Shown piece by piece: positions 24,653 through 31,866 of a stretch of DNA of 53,033 bases. A program made the position numbers and the translations under genes. The notes under the pieces are model-generated. The model was not told where the DNA came from. It saw only the letters and a program-made list of their open reading frames with translations, and ran no database searches. Position 1 is the first letter of the stretch. Each line of letters opens with the position of its first letter. This DNA comes from Laspinema olomoucense D3b (lineage in GTDB: Bacteria; Cyanobacteriota; Cyanobacteriia; Cyanobacteriales; Laspinemataceae), in contig NZ_JAMXFA010000044.1 of the NCBI RefSeq assembly GCF_025370785.1, forward strand, positions 1 to 53,033, in the 5' to 3' direction.

Positions 24653-25720
24653 TTAAGTTAGGAAATTACAAGATAGCTGGAGAGTTTCCTCAAACCTAAG
24701 ACATTTTTTTGAGGGCGATCGCCCCCGATTTTCTAAGTACAGCTTCACCCTAACTGCTAAAGACTTTGCCAAAATAGGTGGAACAGCATTGCCAATCTGT
24801 TTACACTGACTTTCTTCGCTGCCATAAAATTCAAACCAATCGGGGAAACTTTGCAGGCGTGCGCCTTCGCGAACAGTTAACCGCCGTCTCCGTCCTTCCG
24901 GTAAGCGAATTCTTAACATATCTCCAGTGGGTGCGCTGAGATTGCGACAGGTGATAGTTCGGGAGGGTCGATCTAAATGTAAATCTCTGGGGTTGACACA
25001 TTTAGAGGCTTTTTCATATTTTCTAATATATTCATCCATGCTAGGAGTGAGAAATTTGGAGTTAGGAGGTGCCATAAATGCCAGTTCTCCGAGGGCTTCT
25101 CCAGCGGTGTAGGGATGAGAGTGATGAGTCTTTTTTGGCCATTCCCACCCGCCTTTATGGGCGATACAAAATAATCTCTGTCGGCGTTGAGGTACACCAT
25201 AATCACTTGCCGTAAGGATTTCCCATTCGACGATGTAATCTAAGGCTTTTAAGCTGCTGATAATTTGTTCAAAATAGGCTTTGTTGCGAAATCGCATTCC
25301 GGGCACGTTTTCAAAGATTGCGATCGCCGGTTGATGGCGTTCTACCGCCTTGATAAAAATTGGAAATCCATCTCGACTGTCTTTGACTCCCTGCTGATTT
25401 CCTCCGACACTAAAAGGTTGACAAGGAGGACCTCCAATAATTACCGATGCACCTTCCACAAATTCACTCTCAGGGGTTAACAGAACCCTGTAGCAAAGAG
25501 AATTGAGATTTTTCCGATAAGTCATACAGGCATCGGGGTCCATTTCATATCCAATGGTTTTAAATCCCACGGCTTCAAATCCTAGTGCAAATCCTCCACA
25601 ACCGGAAAACAGGTCAATCACCAACGGTTGAACACCGGGATAGGGAATGGGTTTAAGTTCAGTATTCAGAAACTCAAGATAAAGGATTTTTTTGTGGGTG
25701 GGTTGAGGAGTCATTTTCAA
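24653..25720 (-). CDS. DNA (cytosine-5) methyltransferase, solitary
   Basis: 355 residues with the ordered C5-methyltransferase motifs. SAM-binding motif I is DLFSGCGGFALGF. Motif IV is GGPPCQPF with catalytic C100. Motif VI is ENVPG (127-131). Motif VIII is QRRQR (168-172). Motif X is QIGNAVPP (298-305). The target-recognition region between VIII and IX is short, at roughly residues 180-260. No restriction endonuclease, Vsr or specificity gene is recognisable beside it. It may therefore be an orphan methyltransferase or the survivor of a broken restriction system. Target sequence unknown. Start ATG at 25720; a second ATG lies two codons later. It is followed upstream by toxin-antitoxin genes. 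Confidence 0.92.
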   Translation of the reverse strand: MKMTPQPTHKKILYLEFLNTELKPIPYPGVQPLVIDLFSGCGGFALGFEAVGFKTIGYEMDPDACMTYRKNLNSLCYRVLLTPESEFVEGASVIIGGPPCQPFSVGGNQQGVKDSRDGFPIFIKAVERHQPAIAIFENVPGMRFRNKAYFEQIISSLKALDYIVEWEILTASDYGVPQRRQRLFCIAHKGGWEWPKKTHHSHPYTAGEALGELAFMAPPNSKFLTPSMDEYIRKYEKASKCVNPRDLHLDRPSRTITCRNLSAPTGDMLRIRLPEGRRRRLTVREGARLQSFPDWFEFYGSEESQCKQIGNAVPPILAKSLAVRVKLYLENRGRSPSKKCLRFEETLQLSCNFLT

Positions 25721-25795: not shown

Positions 25796-26140
25796 TTACG
25801 GTTCGTGAGGCTTAATCACCAGAGGTTCGAGTTGTACGAGAAGTTTAGGTATTTCGCGATGGATTACGTCCCAAACAATATCGAGGTCAACTTGATCGTA
25901 TTCATGAACAATCACATCACGCATCCCGGCTAAGTTTCGCCAAGGGATTTCTGGGTGATGTTGACGAAATTCCATTGAAAGGCGCTTTGTGGCTTCTCCA
26001 ATGATTGTAATCTGATAGAGAATCGCCGAAACCTTTTCATCATTAGTGATCAGTTCAGGTGGCTCAATACCACTGGCATAGCGGAGGATGCGCTTGGCGG
26101 CATTTTCAATATCAATTAGGGATTCTAGATCTTGTGGCAT
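25796..26140 (-). CDS. hepT: HepT-like HEPN domain toxin (DUF86)
   Basis: About 114 residues from ATG 26140 (MPQDLESLIDIENAAKRIL). It has the HEPN ribonuclease signature R-x4-H-x-Y as RDVIVHEY. In characterised MntA-HepT systems this protein is an RNase toxin, and the Tyr of that motif is AMPylated by the nucleotidyltransferase antitoxin. The frame stays open to 26236, but only because it overlaps mntA. The ATG at 26140 overlaps the 3' end of mntA by 29 bases, the usual coupled arrangement. All key residues are present, so the pair is probably functional. A 12-codon remnant of a second copy exists at 26997-27065. Confidence 0.87.
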   Translation of the reverse strand: MPQDLESLIDIENAAKRILRYASGIEPPELITNDEKVSAILYQITIIGEATKRLSMEFRQHHPEIPWRNLAGMRDVIVHEYDQVDLDIVWDVIHREIPKLLVQLEPLVIKPHEP

Positions 26141-26450
26141 AGATAACTTTGGCTGATTCCAGTATCTGTTGACGGCGTAGCCAGTTTTCGCTTTTGACGA
26201 TCGCCGGTTTGATAATAAAGTCAACTTCCCGACCAAAAAGGGTTTCTAACTCCTGACGCATTTGGATTGTTTCGGCTAAACCCCGCCGAAATTCAGGGTC
26301 AAACGTGACGAGCACATCAATGTCACTATCGGGGCGAAAATCATCGCGCAAGACCGAGCCAAATAGGGCAAATTCTGTGATGTGCCAGCGTTGGCAAAAC
26401 TCTTGAATTTGGGTGAAGGGCAGTTCGAGATTATGGTTAATTGCGTTCAT
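26112..26450 (-). CDS. mntA: MntA-like nucleotidyltransferase antitoxin
   Basis: About 112 residues from ATG 26450 (MNAINHNLELPF); the frame extends six codons further to 26468. The minimal nucleotidyltransferase motif is intact: GSVLRDDFRPDSDIDVLV, that is GS-x10-D-x-D. Known MntA proteins silence HepT by transferring AMP to its active-site Tyr. It precedes and overlaps hepT. A second copy at 27037-27375 is about 99% identical across most of its length but carries a stop codon. The last residues differ between the copies (ATRSRIPN here, ATSFRLPD there), which marks where they diverge. Confidence 0.87.
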   Translation of the reverse strand: MNAINHNLELPFTQIQEFCQRWHITEFALFGSVLRDDFRPDSDIDVLVTFDPEFRRGLAETIQMRQELETLFGREVDFIIKPAIVKSENWLRRQQILESAKVIYATRSRIPN

Positions 26451-26606
26451 AGTTAACAGCGGAATCATTGACCCCTTGCCGGAATTGGCGATCGCATCAC
26501 GATTCCTCTGGCAAACTAGCAGGAGATCGCCTTGTTCTATTGTACTAGAAGCAAGGGTTAATTTGACTAGAATGTATGGTGAGGTTCATGACCCAATAAC
26601 CTGTCA

Positions 26607-28543: not shown

Positions 28544-29833
28544 TTATCTCGCTCTCCCCCAAGGAATGGTCGGGTCTGCTGCAAGTTCTACGGCGACGGA
28601 AAAGGCTCCGTAGCGGTTGAGATGACTGGGGTCGGCAAAGTAATTATCCTGGGTGGGCCAGAGTTGTCCGAGGTCGCGGAAGATAAAGCCTCGTTGAGTG
28701 GCCATGCGTTGCATTTGAGTCCGGAATTGTTGTTCGGAAGAACTTCTCACTGGGTCGAGATAATCGCTGTTTAAGGGGAGATTAACGATAACTAGGGGGA
28801 TTTGTTGGCTGTTGGTGAATTGCGCGATCGCCTCTAATGCTCTCGTCTGTGGTCCCTGCAAGCTAAATGCTGCATAATCTCCATCATATTGTCCCGGTAC
28901 TCGCGGATGTTTCTGATAGTAAGTCTCGGGATTATAGCGATCGCTCACGGGCACGAACCCCCTGGATTGCATTTGGTTGGGGGTCTGCTGGGCGATCAGG
29001 GCTTCGATTCTCGGGAGTGGGGGTCTCCCAGTTCCCGGGGTGGGTGCAGTGGGTCTTTGGTTATTGCGACTATCTGCCGGGTCCCTTCGTCGCATCCACA
29101 TTGCCTGTTGCGCCTCGTCGTTGTAGGTGGCGGCAATTTCTTCTCGGACCTGACTAAACCAGACATTCATGGCTTGATAGGTGGTGGCAAGCGCTTCTCG
29201 GGGGTCATCATTGGTGGTGAGTGGGGGCAAGGGGTCGGTGTTAGGAGAATCTGCTGGGACCACACTTTGCCGACGTCTCGCCGGTCCGGTTCTGGTGGGG
29301 GTGGATGAACCAGGGGTTTGCAGGGGACGCACGCCACTGGAGAGGAGGCGATATCCTTCGGATTCAACTATCGCTTGATAGGTGCGATCGGGACGACCAT
29401 TATTAAAAGCTCTCACGCCATCTGCCCAAATAATCAGTTTGGGAAGTTGAGCTGGGGTCAAGATTCTCCGTAATAAGAGGTCAATGACTTGGGCGGTGGC
29501 CCCATTGATGCTAAAGTTATAAATTCTCAGTCCCGGATGTCCGTAATGGGCTAAGGCGAGTTCTAAGGCGAGGGGGTCTACCCCTTGTAATGCTCTGGAA
29601 CTGCCGACGATTAAGATATCGGGAGGTCCGGATTGGTTCAACTGCTGCTGATAGCGGATCAGTTGTTCGTCGAGTCGCTGACTATTAAAGGAGGGGAAGG
29701 GCTGGGACTGGGAGCTTCGGGCGTTGACGACCCCCTGAGCGATCGCCGGATGAATCCACAGGGTTTGAGTTACTGCTGGGAGTGCGATCGCCAGGGATAA
29801 CAGTCTCAAAGTCACAAACGCGCGTTTTTTCAT
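28544..29833 (-). CDS. Exported SGNH/GDSL-like hydrolase family protein
   Basis: 429 residues with a signal peptide (KKRAFVTLRLLSLAIALPAV, cleavage near AIAQ at 30-33). The nucleophile motif is ILIVGSSRALQGVDP with S78. A later SINGATA may supply the oxyanion residue. A C-terminal DPSHLNRYG gives the D401-x2-H404 dyad. This is the order of an SGNH hydrolase of the AlgJ/DUF1574-like type. The middle, about residues 175-285, contains two Pro/Arg-rich low-complexity insertions. The substrate is unknown; exported relatives often deacetylate or acetylate surface polysaccharides. The ATG at 29833 is the natural start. Confidence 0.75.
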   Translation of the reverse strand: MKKRAFVTLRLLSLAIALPAVTQTLWIHPAIAQGVVNARSSQSQPFPSFNSQRLDEQLIRYQQQLNQSGPPDILIVGSSRALQGVDPLALELALAHYGHPGLRIYNFSINGATAQVIDLLLRRILTPAQLPKLIIWADGVRAFNNGRPDRTYQAIVESEGYRLLSSGVRPLQTPGSSTPTRTGPARRRQSVVPADSPNTDPLPPLTTNDDPREALATTYQAMNVWFSQVREEIAATYNDEAQQAMWMRRRDPADSRNNQRPTAPTPGTGRPPLPRIEALIAQQTPNQMQSRGFVPVSDRYNPETYYQKHPRVPGQYDGDYAAFSLQGPQTRALEAIAQFTNSQQIPLVIVNLPLNSDYLDPVRSSSEQQFRTQMQRMATQRGFIFRDLGQLWPTQDNYFADPSHLNRYGAFSVAVELAADPTIPWGRAR

Positions 29834-30166
29834 ATAGCTAATTTGTTATGGGGGCGAGTCATTACGGGGAACAAGGCAATCCTTTTCAACAGTTTAGCCA
29901 GTTGGTGATCCCTCTTTACTTCTCTGCCTCGGACGGTTCTTTGAGCGGTTGAGGTTTCCGGGTCCCTTGAGCGATCGCCCTTCTCCGGCTGCTGCTGCGA
30001 TCCGGGAAATCATTTTAGCTCACATCACGCATCGCTGCTGTTACAATTCATGCAGGCTCCCAGCCCCGGAACCCCGATGACCCAGGAGAGTGACTGGGTT
30101 GGGATGTAGCCCCGAAAAAGGGGACCCCACAATCCCCGTAAAAAACTTTGGAAAATTTTGCAAATC
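29834..30166. other. Gene-free region ahead of the tandem RNA cassettes
   Basis: No gene seen. It should contain the promoter of the minus-strand SGNH gene. From about 30060 it turns into the first copy of the cassette described below, with a CCCC-GAAAAA-GGGG hairpin near 30110 and GGGGACCCCA at 30120. Confidence 0.4.
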
Positions 30167-30183
30167 TTCACAAGATTTTCACA
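30167..30183 (+). promoter_or_regulatory. Direct repeat TTCACA-N5-TTCACA upstream of RNA cassette 1
   Basis: TTCACA (30167-30172) and TTCACA (30178-30183) repeat with an 11-base period, one helical turn. This is the form of site bound by OmpR/PhoB-family response regulators. Promoter-like TTATCT (30192-30197) and TCTAAA (30215-30220) follow with a 17-base spacer. The same layout recurs in cassettes 2 and 3. Confidence 0.55.
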
Positions 30184-30226
30184 GCTCTCGATTATCTTGA
30201 TAATCAGCTAAGGTTCTAAACCTGTT

Positions 30227-30361
30227 CGTAACTTCTTTCAAAGCCCTTTTAAAACCCGCTGGCTGCATTGATGCCTTTTACAATCGTTTCTTGTATAAGG
30301 ACTCAGCCAGTTTATAAAAATATCAAATAACCAGGCCCATGAGGGCCTGGTTATATTTTTT
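30227..30361 (+). ncRNA. Tandem structured small RNA, copy 1
   Basis: Predicted RNA of about 135 nt; the 5' end is inferred from the promoter-like sequence. Stem CTGGCTG (30259-30265) / CAGCCAG (30304-30310) encloses a loop with a smaller TACAA/TTGTA hairpin. It ends in a perfect 12-bp terminator hairpin. The segment TTTCAAAGCCCTTTTAAAAC before the stem is shared with copy 2. No conserved reading frame. I do not recognise a named RNA family. Confidence 0.6.
30327..30361 (+). terminator. Terminator of RNA copy 1
   Basis: ATAACCAGGCCC (30327-30338) pairs perfectly with GGGCCTGGTTAT (30343-30354), and ATTTTTT follows. A strong plus-strand intrinsic terminator. Confidence 0.85.
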
Positions 30362-30462
30362 GAGCTAATTTTAGCCCGTGGATACTCCATGAGGCGGAAA
30401 TGAGAGGCCCTCCTCATGGGGACTCATACCCCTCAAAAAATTTTTAGAAAATTCCTCCACTC

Positions 30463-30479
30463 TTCATAAGATATTCACA
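30463..30479 (+). promoter_or_regulatory. Direct repeat TTCATA-N5-TTCACA upstream of RNA cassette 2
   Basis: TTCATA (30463-30468) and TTCACA (30474-30479), 11-base period. The conserved GGTT that precedes the -10-like region starts 34 bases after the second TTCACA begins, exactly as in cassettes 1 and 3. The -35-like hexamer is weaker here (ATATAG). Confidence 0.5.
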
Positions 30480-30522
30480 TTTCTTAAATATAGTAAGAAT
30501 TAATAAAGGTTTTAACTTTTTT

Positions 30523-30654
30523 TTTACTCATTTCAAAGCTCTTTTAAACACCACTGGCTGACATTTTGTCTTGCCCCCTCCTGGTTGTATTGAATAACCG
30601 TCAGCCGGTCTATAACATTCTCCCAGCTCCCCCCGGAGCTGGGTGTATTATTTT
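30523..30654 (+). ncRNA. Tandem structured small RNA, copy 2
   Basis: Predicted RNA of about 132 nt. Stem ACTGGCTGAC (30553-30562) pairs with GTCAGCCGGT (30600-30609), 10 bp including one G-U. The 5' part ATTTCAAAGCTCTTTTAAAC matches copy 1. Terminator at the 3' end. The loop sequence is different from copies 1 and 3. Confidence 0.6.
30622..30654 (+). terminator. Terminator of RNA copy 2
   Basis: CCCAGCTCC (30622-30630) / GGAGCTGGG (30635-30643) with a CCCC loop, followed by TGTATTATTTT. Its sequence is unrelated to that of copy 1 although the position is equivalent. Confidence 0.8.
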
Positions 30655-30798
30655 GGAGGGGCATCCCGGTATAGGGACCTTTAATTCGATTTTTTTTGGG
30701 ATGGAACCCTTTATTTTAAGGGGATTGCCCCCAGAGGTGGGGACTGAGGTTTGGAGGCCCGAACCCCCCAAAAAATTTTTTTCCAAGTTAGGAAAATC

Positions 30799-30815
30799 TT
30801 CATCAGATATTCACA
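30799..30815 (+). promoter_or_regulatory. Direct repeat TTCATC-N5-TTCACA upstream of RNA cassette 3
   Basis: TTCATC (30799-30804) and TTCACA (30810-30815), 11-base period. TTATCT (30824-30829) and TATAAA (30847-30852) follow with a 17-base spacer, the best promoter match of the three. Confidence 0.55.
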
Positions 30816-30858
30816 TTGGTTGCTTATCTTGTAAACCAGCAACGGTTATAAACTTTTT

Positions 30859-30990
30859 TTGACGGCTTTTAATAGAGTTTTAAAAACCGCTAACTGGCTC
30901 TCGATGCCCCAAGCCCTCGATTGTTTTTAATAACCGCCAGTTAGCTGATAAAAGAAGCCCAGATGCTTAAGCGTCTGGGCTTCTGATTTG
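30859..30990 (+). ncRNA. Tandem structured small RNA, copy 3
   Basis: Predicted RNA of about 130 nt. Stem GCTAACTGGC (30889-30898) pairs perfectly with GCCAGTTAGC (30936-30945). The base pairs differ from those of copies 1 and 2 but the helix is kept, which is compensatory change. The loop contains a TCGA...TCGA pair. The shared TTTTAAAAACCGC precedes the stem. Confidence 0.6.
30953..30984. terminator. Terminator of RNA copy 3, possibly shared with the convergent gene
   Basis: AGAAGCCCAGA (30953-30963) pairs with TCTGGGCTTCT (30974-30984); the loop contains the palindrome GCTTAAGC. The T-tract is poor on the plus strand. It lies 15 bases beyond the stop of the minus-strand fructosamine kinase gene, so it may serve both directions. 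Confidence 0.65.
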
Positions 30991-30999
30991 GGGGATAAG

Positions 31000-31866
31000 T
31001 TAATGCAATAGGGTGGCGATCGCCCGGTTTGCTTGGGACCCATACCCGCCGCCAAATAAATTAAAATGATTCAGGATGTGATACAGGTTATAAAGGGTTT
31101 TGCGCTGTTCATATCCCCCAGGCAAGGGCCAAACTTCGTTGTATCCTTGATAGAAAGCCGAGGAAAATCCTCCAAATAATTCGGTCATGGCAATATCAAC
31201 TTCCCGATCGCCATAATAGGTGGCGGGGTCATAAATAGTGGGTTCCCCCGCTTGGGTCACTCCGGCATTGCCTCCCCATAAATCTCCGTGGACGAGGGAG
31301 GGTTGGGGGGTATGATTTGCTAATAATTGAGGAATCGCATCCAGGAGGCGATCGCCTTCGGGAAACTGCCCCCCTTTTCGCCGCGCCAGTTGCAGTTGAA
31401 ACCTGATGCGATGTTCCACCCAAAACTCAGTCCAATCAGTGGTCCAAGTATTGATTTGTGGGGTGGAACCAATGGTATTATTTCGACCCCAGCCAAATTT
31501 GCGTGAACCGGAATGTTGATGCAAAGCAGCCAGTTTGCGCCCCATTTCTCGGGAGACTTGGGCATCCGCGCGAGAAGCCAACTCCAGCCACTCTAAAACA
31601 ATATAGGCCGAATCATCGGCAATGCCGGTACAGATGGGTTTGGGGACCCGAATGGTGTGGGTGTCCCACATTTCCTGTAATCCCAATGCCTCCGCCTCAA
31701 ACATCGGCAGATCCACAGCGCGATTCAGCTTGACAAAGTAGGTGCGACTGCCCCCAGTGAGGCGATACCCTTGATTGATGCAACCCCCGCCCACAGAACG
31801 GCGATCGCCCAGGGCAAATTTCTCGTTGGTTACCTCAGTAATCTGTTTAGCAATGTGCTCCCACAT
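31000..31866 (-). CDS. Fructosamine kinase family protein
   Basis: 288 residues of the FN3K family, which phosphorylates ketosamines on glycated proteins so that they break down (protein deglycation). Segments seen: a Gly-rich nucleotide loop (GGGCINQGYRL), a Lys in TYFVKLN, the catalytic loop HGDLWGGN, and metal-binding IYDPATYYGDREVD. The family Trp-Gly motif (KFGWGRNNTIGSTPQ) is intact. Length is normal. It could also be classed as a bacterial ribulosamine/erythrulosamine kinase. It is convergent with the tandem RNA cassettes and has no operon partner. Confidence 0.92.
   Translation of the reverse strand: MWEHIAKQITEVTNEKFALGDRRSVGGGCINQGYRLTGGSRTYFVKLNRAVDLPMFEAEALGLQEMWDTHTIRVPKPICTGIADDSAYIVLEWLELASRADAQVSREMGRKLAALHQHSGSRKFGWGRNNTIGSTPQINTWTTDWTEFWVEHRIRFQLQLARRKGGQFPEGDRLLDAIPQLLANHTPQPSLVHGDLWGGNAGVTQAGEPTIYDPATYYGDREVDIAMTELFGGFSSAFYQGYNEVWPLPGGYEQRKTLYNLYHILNHFNLFGGGYGSQANRAIATLLH

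Follow-up and report, generated by a model that had tools for sequence, protein, structure and literature searches.

The stretch of DNA between a DUF1574 gene (28544–29833, minus strand) and a convergent fructosamine kinase gene (31000–31866, minus strand; Pfam PF03881, E 5e-119) in Laspinema olomoucense D3b holds no protein gene. It lies in the window, by which we mean the whole stretch of 53,033 nucleotides analysed, corresponding to contig C49 of the 7.02-Mb genome. A sequence-only reading had proposed that three diverged tandem cassettes in this stretch give rise to a family of paralogous small RNAs.

Architecture of the array

A repeat search recovered three diverged tandem copies with starts 295 and 336 nucleotides apart, and the same copies were recovered by alignment. 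Together with folding and a promoter motif at each copy, this shows that the three cassettes are real; the second period, previously given as 321, is corrected to the measured 336. Each cassette consists of an 11-bp direct repeat (TTCAY-N6-TTCACA), a −10-like element, an RNA of about 150 nt that contains a single long stem, and a hairpin terminator.

The copy-1 promoter (30140–30198, plus strand) contains an A/T-rich segment, the half-sites TTCACA (30167–30172) and TTCACA (30178–30183), and the −10-like hexamer TATCTT (30193–30198). It precedes the copy-1 RNA (30203–30363, plus strand), with a single-stranded 5′ part up to 30258, a stem (30259–30265/30304–30310) and a terminator (30327–30354). 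Copy 2 has the same layout, with a promoter at 30431–30494 (plus strand; A/T-rich segment, TTCATA 30463–30468, TTCACA 30474–30479, TATAGT 30489–30494) and an RNA at 30499–30655 (plus strand), whose stem pairs ACTGGCTGAC (30553–30562) with GTCAGCCGGT (30600–30609) upstream of a terminator at 30622–30643. In copy 3 the promoter spans 30771–30830 (plus strand; A/T-rich segment, TTCATC 30799–30804, TTCACA 30810–30815, TATCTT 30825–30830) and the RNA 30835–30991 (plus strand), with a stem of GCTAACTGGC (30889–30898) and GCCAGTTAGC (30936–30945) and a terminator hairpin at 30953–30984. Judged from the −10-like hexamers, transcription would start near 30205, 30501 and 30837, about 20 nt upstream of the positions suggested earlier (30227, 30523 and 30859), which are probably wrong.

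The long stems described by the sequence-only reading are present in all cassettes. GGGGAC, which it listed as a common element, is out of register in copy 3, and the orthologues vary there. Its description of the terminator stems as unrelated did not hold either: CCAG...CUGG is common to all three, and the orthologues stay near CCAGACCC/GGGUCUGG. A simple terminator scan of the plus strand found copies 1 and 2 and missed copy 3. The U-runs after the terminator stem are weak in copies 2 and 3, which we counted against a reading as small RNA (sRNA) genes. The copy-3 hairpin may terminate the convergent kinase gene as well.

RNA structure and strand

Folding of the plus strand gave z-scores of −4.9, −4.8 and −6.6 for copies 1–3, with none of 200 shuffles folding as well. 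Structure is also evident on the reverse strand (z −5.2, −3.6 and −6.1), as stems would be expected to give. All three copies display the same order of modules, namely an AAAACCG-like flank, the stem, a UAUAA-like flank and the terminator. RNAalifold on 24 copies returned an 8-bp stem and the terminator, 15 pairs in total, of which 8 had changes on both sides.

Covariation was then quantified in three alignments. Among 26 sequences from the genus, the family and one other family, 97.3% of the cells were paired and 11 of 15 pairs had changed on both sides. On four of five measures none of 500 shuffles scored as high (22 of 500 on the fifth), and slid-structure controls reached at most 47.9% paired. 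A more diverse set of 21 sequences gave 95.4% paired cells, with both-side changes in 14 of 15 pairs. The third set comprised 19 loci outside the training set, which are matches of the search model R3 (see below) and hence biased towards pairing, G613 and an extra G013 copy being close kin of trained loci; here 94.0% of the cells were paired and 14 of 15 pairs had changed on both sides, against at most 48.5% paired in slid controls. Omitted from this alignment were the weak G260 and G036, as well as G224, for which there was no locus.

Read on the plus strand, G-U cells exceed A-C cells by 24 to 5, and by 41 to 3 in the 19 untrained loci. The RNA is therefore on the plus strand, and the minus strand was ruled out as the RNA by the same excess. 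This bears on the idea that the array is a cis-acting terminator region of the convergent kinase gene, or a series of attenuators, and not a set of separate RNA genes. The array does lie at the 3′ end of the kinase gene, and TTTT comes after its last hairpin when the minus strand is read. However, the G-U pairs favour the opposite strand, each copy has its own conserved promoter motif, and distant members of the family adjoin other genes, so that a cis-acting role of this kind is very unlikely.

Conservation in the genus

A DNA search of 59 genomes, including that of L. olomoucense D3b itself, matched 11, namely the eight genus genomes and three from other members of the family. The array is present in all eight genus genomes examined, alignable over its full length and with position and order kept. 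In one of them (G002) copy 3 ends at the contig end, and this genome was left out of the identity means. Among the remaining orthologues the mean pairwise identities for copies 1, 2 and 3 were 1.00, 0.97 and 0.94 in the 5′ arms of the stems; 0.94, 0.92 and 0.88 in the leaders; 0.92 (over 30140–30204), 0.84 and 0.91 in the promoters; 0.92, 0.84 and 0.86 in the terminators; and 0.84, 0.73 and 0.83 in the loops. The two inter-copy spacers reached 0.73 and 0.74. The kinase gene is a syntenic anchor: it adjoins the RNA in all six relatives' loci tested by tblastn (G008, G009, G011, G013, G075 and G152), and the DUF1574 gene on the other flank does so in two (G008 and G009).

The copies are only 55–59% identical to each other, and their leaders 57–65% over the central part. 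In a tree of 26 copies, including six genus genomes, copies 1, 2 and 3 each formed one clade (100/99) with no mixing, the deeper forks being weak. It follows from this separation that the duplications took place before the genus arose and that no homogenisation of the copies has occurred.

These observations largely refute a mobile or selfish palindromic repeat of the REP or MITE kind. Hairpins in several copies, together with one extra copy away from the array in G013, might have pointed to such an element. Yet the D3b genome contains only these three copies (a fourth match of model R2 is the reverse strand of the array), their position and order are kept in the genus, each copy forms its own clade, and the changes are compensatory. 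We thus regard a mobile origin as highly improbable. Still less probable, to the point of being negligible, are mRNAs for short peptides. A 19-codon ATG open reading frame (ORF) in copy 1 is found in D3b and three other genus genomes, but it is lost or altered in the other four of the eight, and neither copy 2 nor copy 3 has an ORF of at least 10 codons kept by all genus orthologues.

Promoter motif and its other sites

The motif TTCAY-N6-TTCACA begins at 30167, 30463 and 30799, and these are its only three sites in the window on either strand. The direct repeat at the copy-1 promoter was found in all eight genus genomes. The exact pattern TTCAYN6TTCACN10TATNNT has four sites in the D3b genome, the three cassettes and one on contig C81. 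With a similar pattern and at most one mismatch, the eight genus genomes gave 53 matches, compared with 9 for a reversed control. Sorting by matched letters placed 51 of these in recurring groups and left two single sites. The cassettes account for 24 matches in 8/8 genomes. Two groups, each again in 8/8 genomes, concern Cys-rich CPCC proteins: one lies before an operon in which a CPCC gene is joined with the gene for a small, 73-aa membrane protein (genes read in seven genomes), and the other before a second CPCC gene (gene read in four). The C81 type, found in 7/8 genomes, contains no ORF and specifies a hairpin, about 75 nt in length, with a similar fold in the two genomes in which it was read. 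The last group (4/8 genomes, read in two) precedes an uncharacterised gene and has TTCAA as second half-site.

Some of these sites deserve description in their own right. The C81-type RNA is a GAGTTRGCTA...TAGCTAACTC hairpin, located at G000:C81:158638-158669 on the minus strand (L136/L020) and, in G005, at locus L185. The two CPCC proteins of D3b are alike, small and of the form CPCC...CWQxMPD; their genes, at G000:C44:113104 (L140) and G000:C45:15742 (L142), have TTCAC-N6-TTCAC upstream, and the proteins gave sub-threshold Pfam matches only and no NCBIfam match. At G000:C70:18557 (L144), four tandem TTCAY 11-mers lie between divergent genes for an ABC ATPase and an mntC-like metal-binding lipoprotein, both named by eye.

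The motif resembles the sites of known OmpR-type regulators to different degrees. PhoB, according to the part of PMC1906773 available to us, uses 8-bp boxes arranged in tandem, with 3-bp linkers between them, some 10 bp before the −10 element. The 11-bp tandem repeat of the array, just upstream of the −10-like hexamer, is close to this arrangement. CopR sites in Synechocystis have the form TTCATN4-5TTCAT and also occur upstream of mntC (PMC4182526, accessible sections). The mntC-like promoter of D3b with its four TTCAY 11-mers is a likeness to CopR/ManR-type regulators, whereas the array differs from CopR sites in its N6 spacing and in TTCAC as second half-site. The accessible sections of PMC4361706 gave nothing usable on the letters of the ManR site. 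Compared by eye, the tandem CTTAACCT of the SphR box has the same 11-bp period but different letters, and the HLR1 box of RpaB, KTTACAWW-N2-KTTACAWW in the available text of PMC13421787, likewise differs from TTCAY-N6-TTCACA. A Pho or HLR1 box was thus ruled out by the letters of the motif.

Beyond the genus, the spacing between repeat and −10 element is the same in G008 and G011. G009, whose −10 is weak, keeps this spacing too, as does G040, where one repeat is degenerate and the promoter has the same geometry in the form TTCACAAAATCCTCACA-N8-TTACTT. Upstream regions were scanned for such offsets at 33 listed loci, the core of G613 not being found. An 11-bp offset stands out in eight of these regions (z 5.1), and it is weakly raised in the 24 others scored (z 2.2, versus 2.1 for a 7-bp offset). 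Most of the distant relatives of the RNA have neither the TTCAY-N6-TTCACA promoter nor the leader, and therefore the regulator and the leader are not family-wide.

Other sequences were seen in front of distant members. An 11-bp direct repeat of the TCTAAAG type lies 67–79 nt before the core at L039, L166, L219, L221 and L222, in five genomes (G036, G699, G095, G167 and G078); recognised by eye and after the fact, it is perhaps another response-regulator box. CCGACTA is found upstream of five loci of family f56 (L147, L162, L164, L172 and L173), preceded by GGGTAGATC in three, and copies of the CCGACTA type occur twice each in G480 and G526.

Distribution beyond the genus

A match to a known Rfam family, which would have spoken against the sequence-only reading, was not found: Rfam 15 gave 0 matches across the window at the gathering threshold. 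Laxer filters on 29834–31000 yielded 12 matches, all far below threshold and to unrelated families. Among the open-licence PMC papers listed by literature searches, none was seen to describe the array or the motif.

Three models of the RNA, R1 to R3, were used to search other genomes. Their E-values are approximate, and since strict filters were applied in the large scans, a missing match there is weak evidence. R1 matched 17 of 388 genomes of the order at E ≤0.1: the eight genus genomes, five of the six others of the family, G075 and G152 of another family and, weakly, G036 and G151. R2 matched two of 20 genomes in the family of G075 and G152, and five of 36 in family f56. In 388 genomes of the class it matched eight, D3b itself and seven weak ones (E 0.0095–0.075). 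Four of the seven (G040, G526, G411 and G561) carry the same core on reading, and the three small-genome matches look like chance. With R3, built with seven of the loci that R2 had found beyond the genus, matches were obtained in 19 of the 388 genomes of the class and in 23 of the 388 of the order, both counts including D3b. The three copies in the window score 118–125 bits with R3, whose training set contained two orthologous arrays but not these copies. When 77 loci flanking the kinase gene in other named cyanobacteria were checked with R3, there was a single match, with an E-value of 1.6. We took G151, G260, G224 and the small-genome matches G490, G596 and G686 as chance or unsure, and G036 as unsure.

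Loci outside the training of every model were found in families f1, f8, f19, f28, f45, f48, f56 and f57. The core common to these further families of the order and class is AAAACCG-stem-loop-stem-UAUAA-terminator, sometimes in several copies per genome, as in G480, where one of the three belongs to the training set. In two f56 genomes of different genera the RNA adjoins psaF, named from its protein sequence. An additional copy in G013 (L223, contig C34) has the same promoter repeat and lies away from the kinase locus.

Homologues with conserved and covarying stems, as expected of a genuine family, were thus found. Arrays in all eight genus genomes, covariation and the lack of an Rfam match strongly support the paralogous structured small-RNA family that had been suggested. 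By its sequence, it is a multi-copy cyanobacterial sRNA family without Rfam 15 match. It adds to the catalogue a structured RNA with members in several cyanobacterial families, which in a single genus is linked with a compact regulon marked by a shared promoter box.

Proposed mechanism and comparison with known RNAs

On balance, we consider it fairly probable that the array encodes a set of sibling sRNAs that act in trans and are activated by a response regulator of the OmpR/PhoB type. Each of the three genes would have a promoter and a terminator hairpin of its own, with transcription running rightwards. The type of regulator is suggested by the motif: on binding the TTCAY half-sites, which lie in tandem with an 11-bp period directly before the −10 element, it would activate all three genes together, as well as the C81-type hairpin RNA and a small number of small-protein genes at other places in the genome. 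In the predicted RNAs, some 50 nt of single-stranded 5′ leader would precede a GC stem, which covaries and lies between the well-conserved AAAACCG and UAUAA, and the terminator hairpin would follow. Since conservation of the leader is copy-specific, we infer that it most likely pairs in trans with mRNAs, the stem module and its flanks serving as a scaffold common to the siblings. Because the leaders differ between copies and little between species, the siblings probably respond to one signal and act on different targets.

The sequence-only reading had attributed different targets to the diverged loops. The loops of copies 1 and 3 are conserved above the spacers and may have some role. In each copy, however, the leader is better conserved than the loop, and as the leaders also differ between copies, target specificity is more likely to reside in the copy-specific 5′ leader. 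A scan of the genus genomes for antisense sites to the 16 nt of highest conservation in the copy-1 leader gave 18 matches, 7 of them the gene itself, versus 22 for the reversed pattern; covering one 16-mer of one copy, it is weak evidence either way.

This limited scan, which revealed no antisense target, would also suit RNAs that bind protein through the AAAACCG/stem/UAUAA module, either sequestering a regulator or docking on an RNA-binding protein, and do not pair with mRNAs. So would the stem and its two flanks, which are kept across families in which leader and loop vary or are missing, and the several copies per genome, as appropriate for a titrating RNA. A common binding module, however, needs neither leaders that are well conserved in the genus (0.88–0.94) nor leaders that differ between copies, and we hold protein binding in place of pairing to be possible but rather unlikely. 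A broader proposal, which we put forward as speculative and doubtful, is that a widespread class of cyanobacterial sRNAs is built around a single module (AAAACCG, GC stem, UAUAA, terminator), which acts as docking platform for an RNA-binding protein, and that lineages have added different leaders, loops and response-regulator promoters. If true, this would be a cyanobacterial counterpart of an sRNA scaffold. Cyanobacterial Hfq is not known to bind RNA in the canonical manner. The two sequences beside the stem, being conserved, offer a concrete handle for finding a cyanobacterial stand-in for Hfq or ProQ. Sibling sRNAs with one promoter box and long-separate leaders would, if the favoured trans-acting reading is right, provide a natural test of how targets are divided among small RNAs.

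Three known cyanobacterial RNAs invite comparison. NsiR1 is a heterocyst-specific sRNA in a tandem array, as stated by the title of a 2010 paper given in PMC4734099 and by the accessible part of PMC9045159. What the two have in common, with NsiR1 known here by description, is a small cyanobacterial RNA that is present in tandem copies and controlled by a dedicated regulator, proposed in the case of the array. By sequence, the array also has several tandem copies with a promoter and a terminator each, the copy-3 terminator being the one missed by the simple scan. In contrast to NsiR1, the copies of the array are strongly diverged and old. The absence of an Rfam match would also set the array RNAs apart from NsiR1, which Rfam should contain. 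PsrR1/SyR1 is a trans-acting sRNA of about 131 nt in the regulon of the OmpR-family regulator RpaB (PMC13421787, PMC6202907, both as far as available). Compared by description only, it resembles the proposed array RNAs as a trans-acting sRNA under an OmpR-family response regulator, and differs in having an HLR1 box where the array has TTCAY-N6-TTCACA. Yfr2 is a multi-member family of cyanobacterial ncRNAs in the available part of PMC6202907. The array RNAs share with it the character of a multi-member family and would be distinguished from it by the lack of an Rfam match in the window, since Rfam should contain Yfr2.

Elsewhere in the window, a cytosine methyltransferase gene (24653–25720) lies beside a gene matching PDC-S09 of PADLOC (25796–26236), nucleotidyltransferase-like by eye, and a small partner ORF without PADLOC match (26112–26468), all on the minus strand. 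The PDC-S09-matching gene and the partner ORF are possibly a toxin-antitoxin pair.
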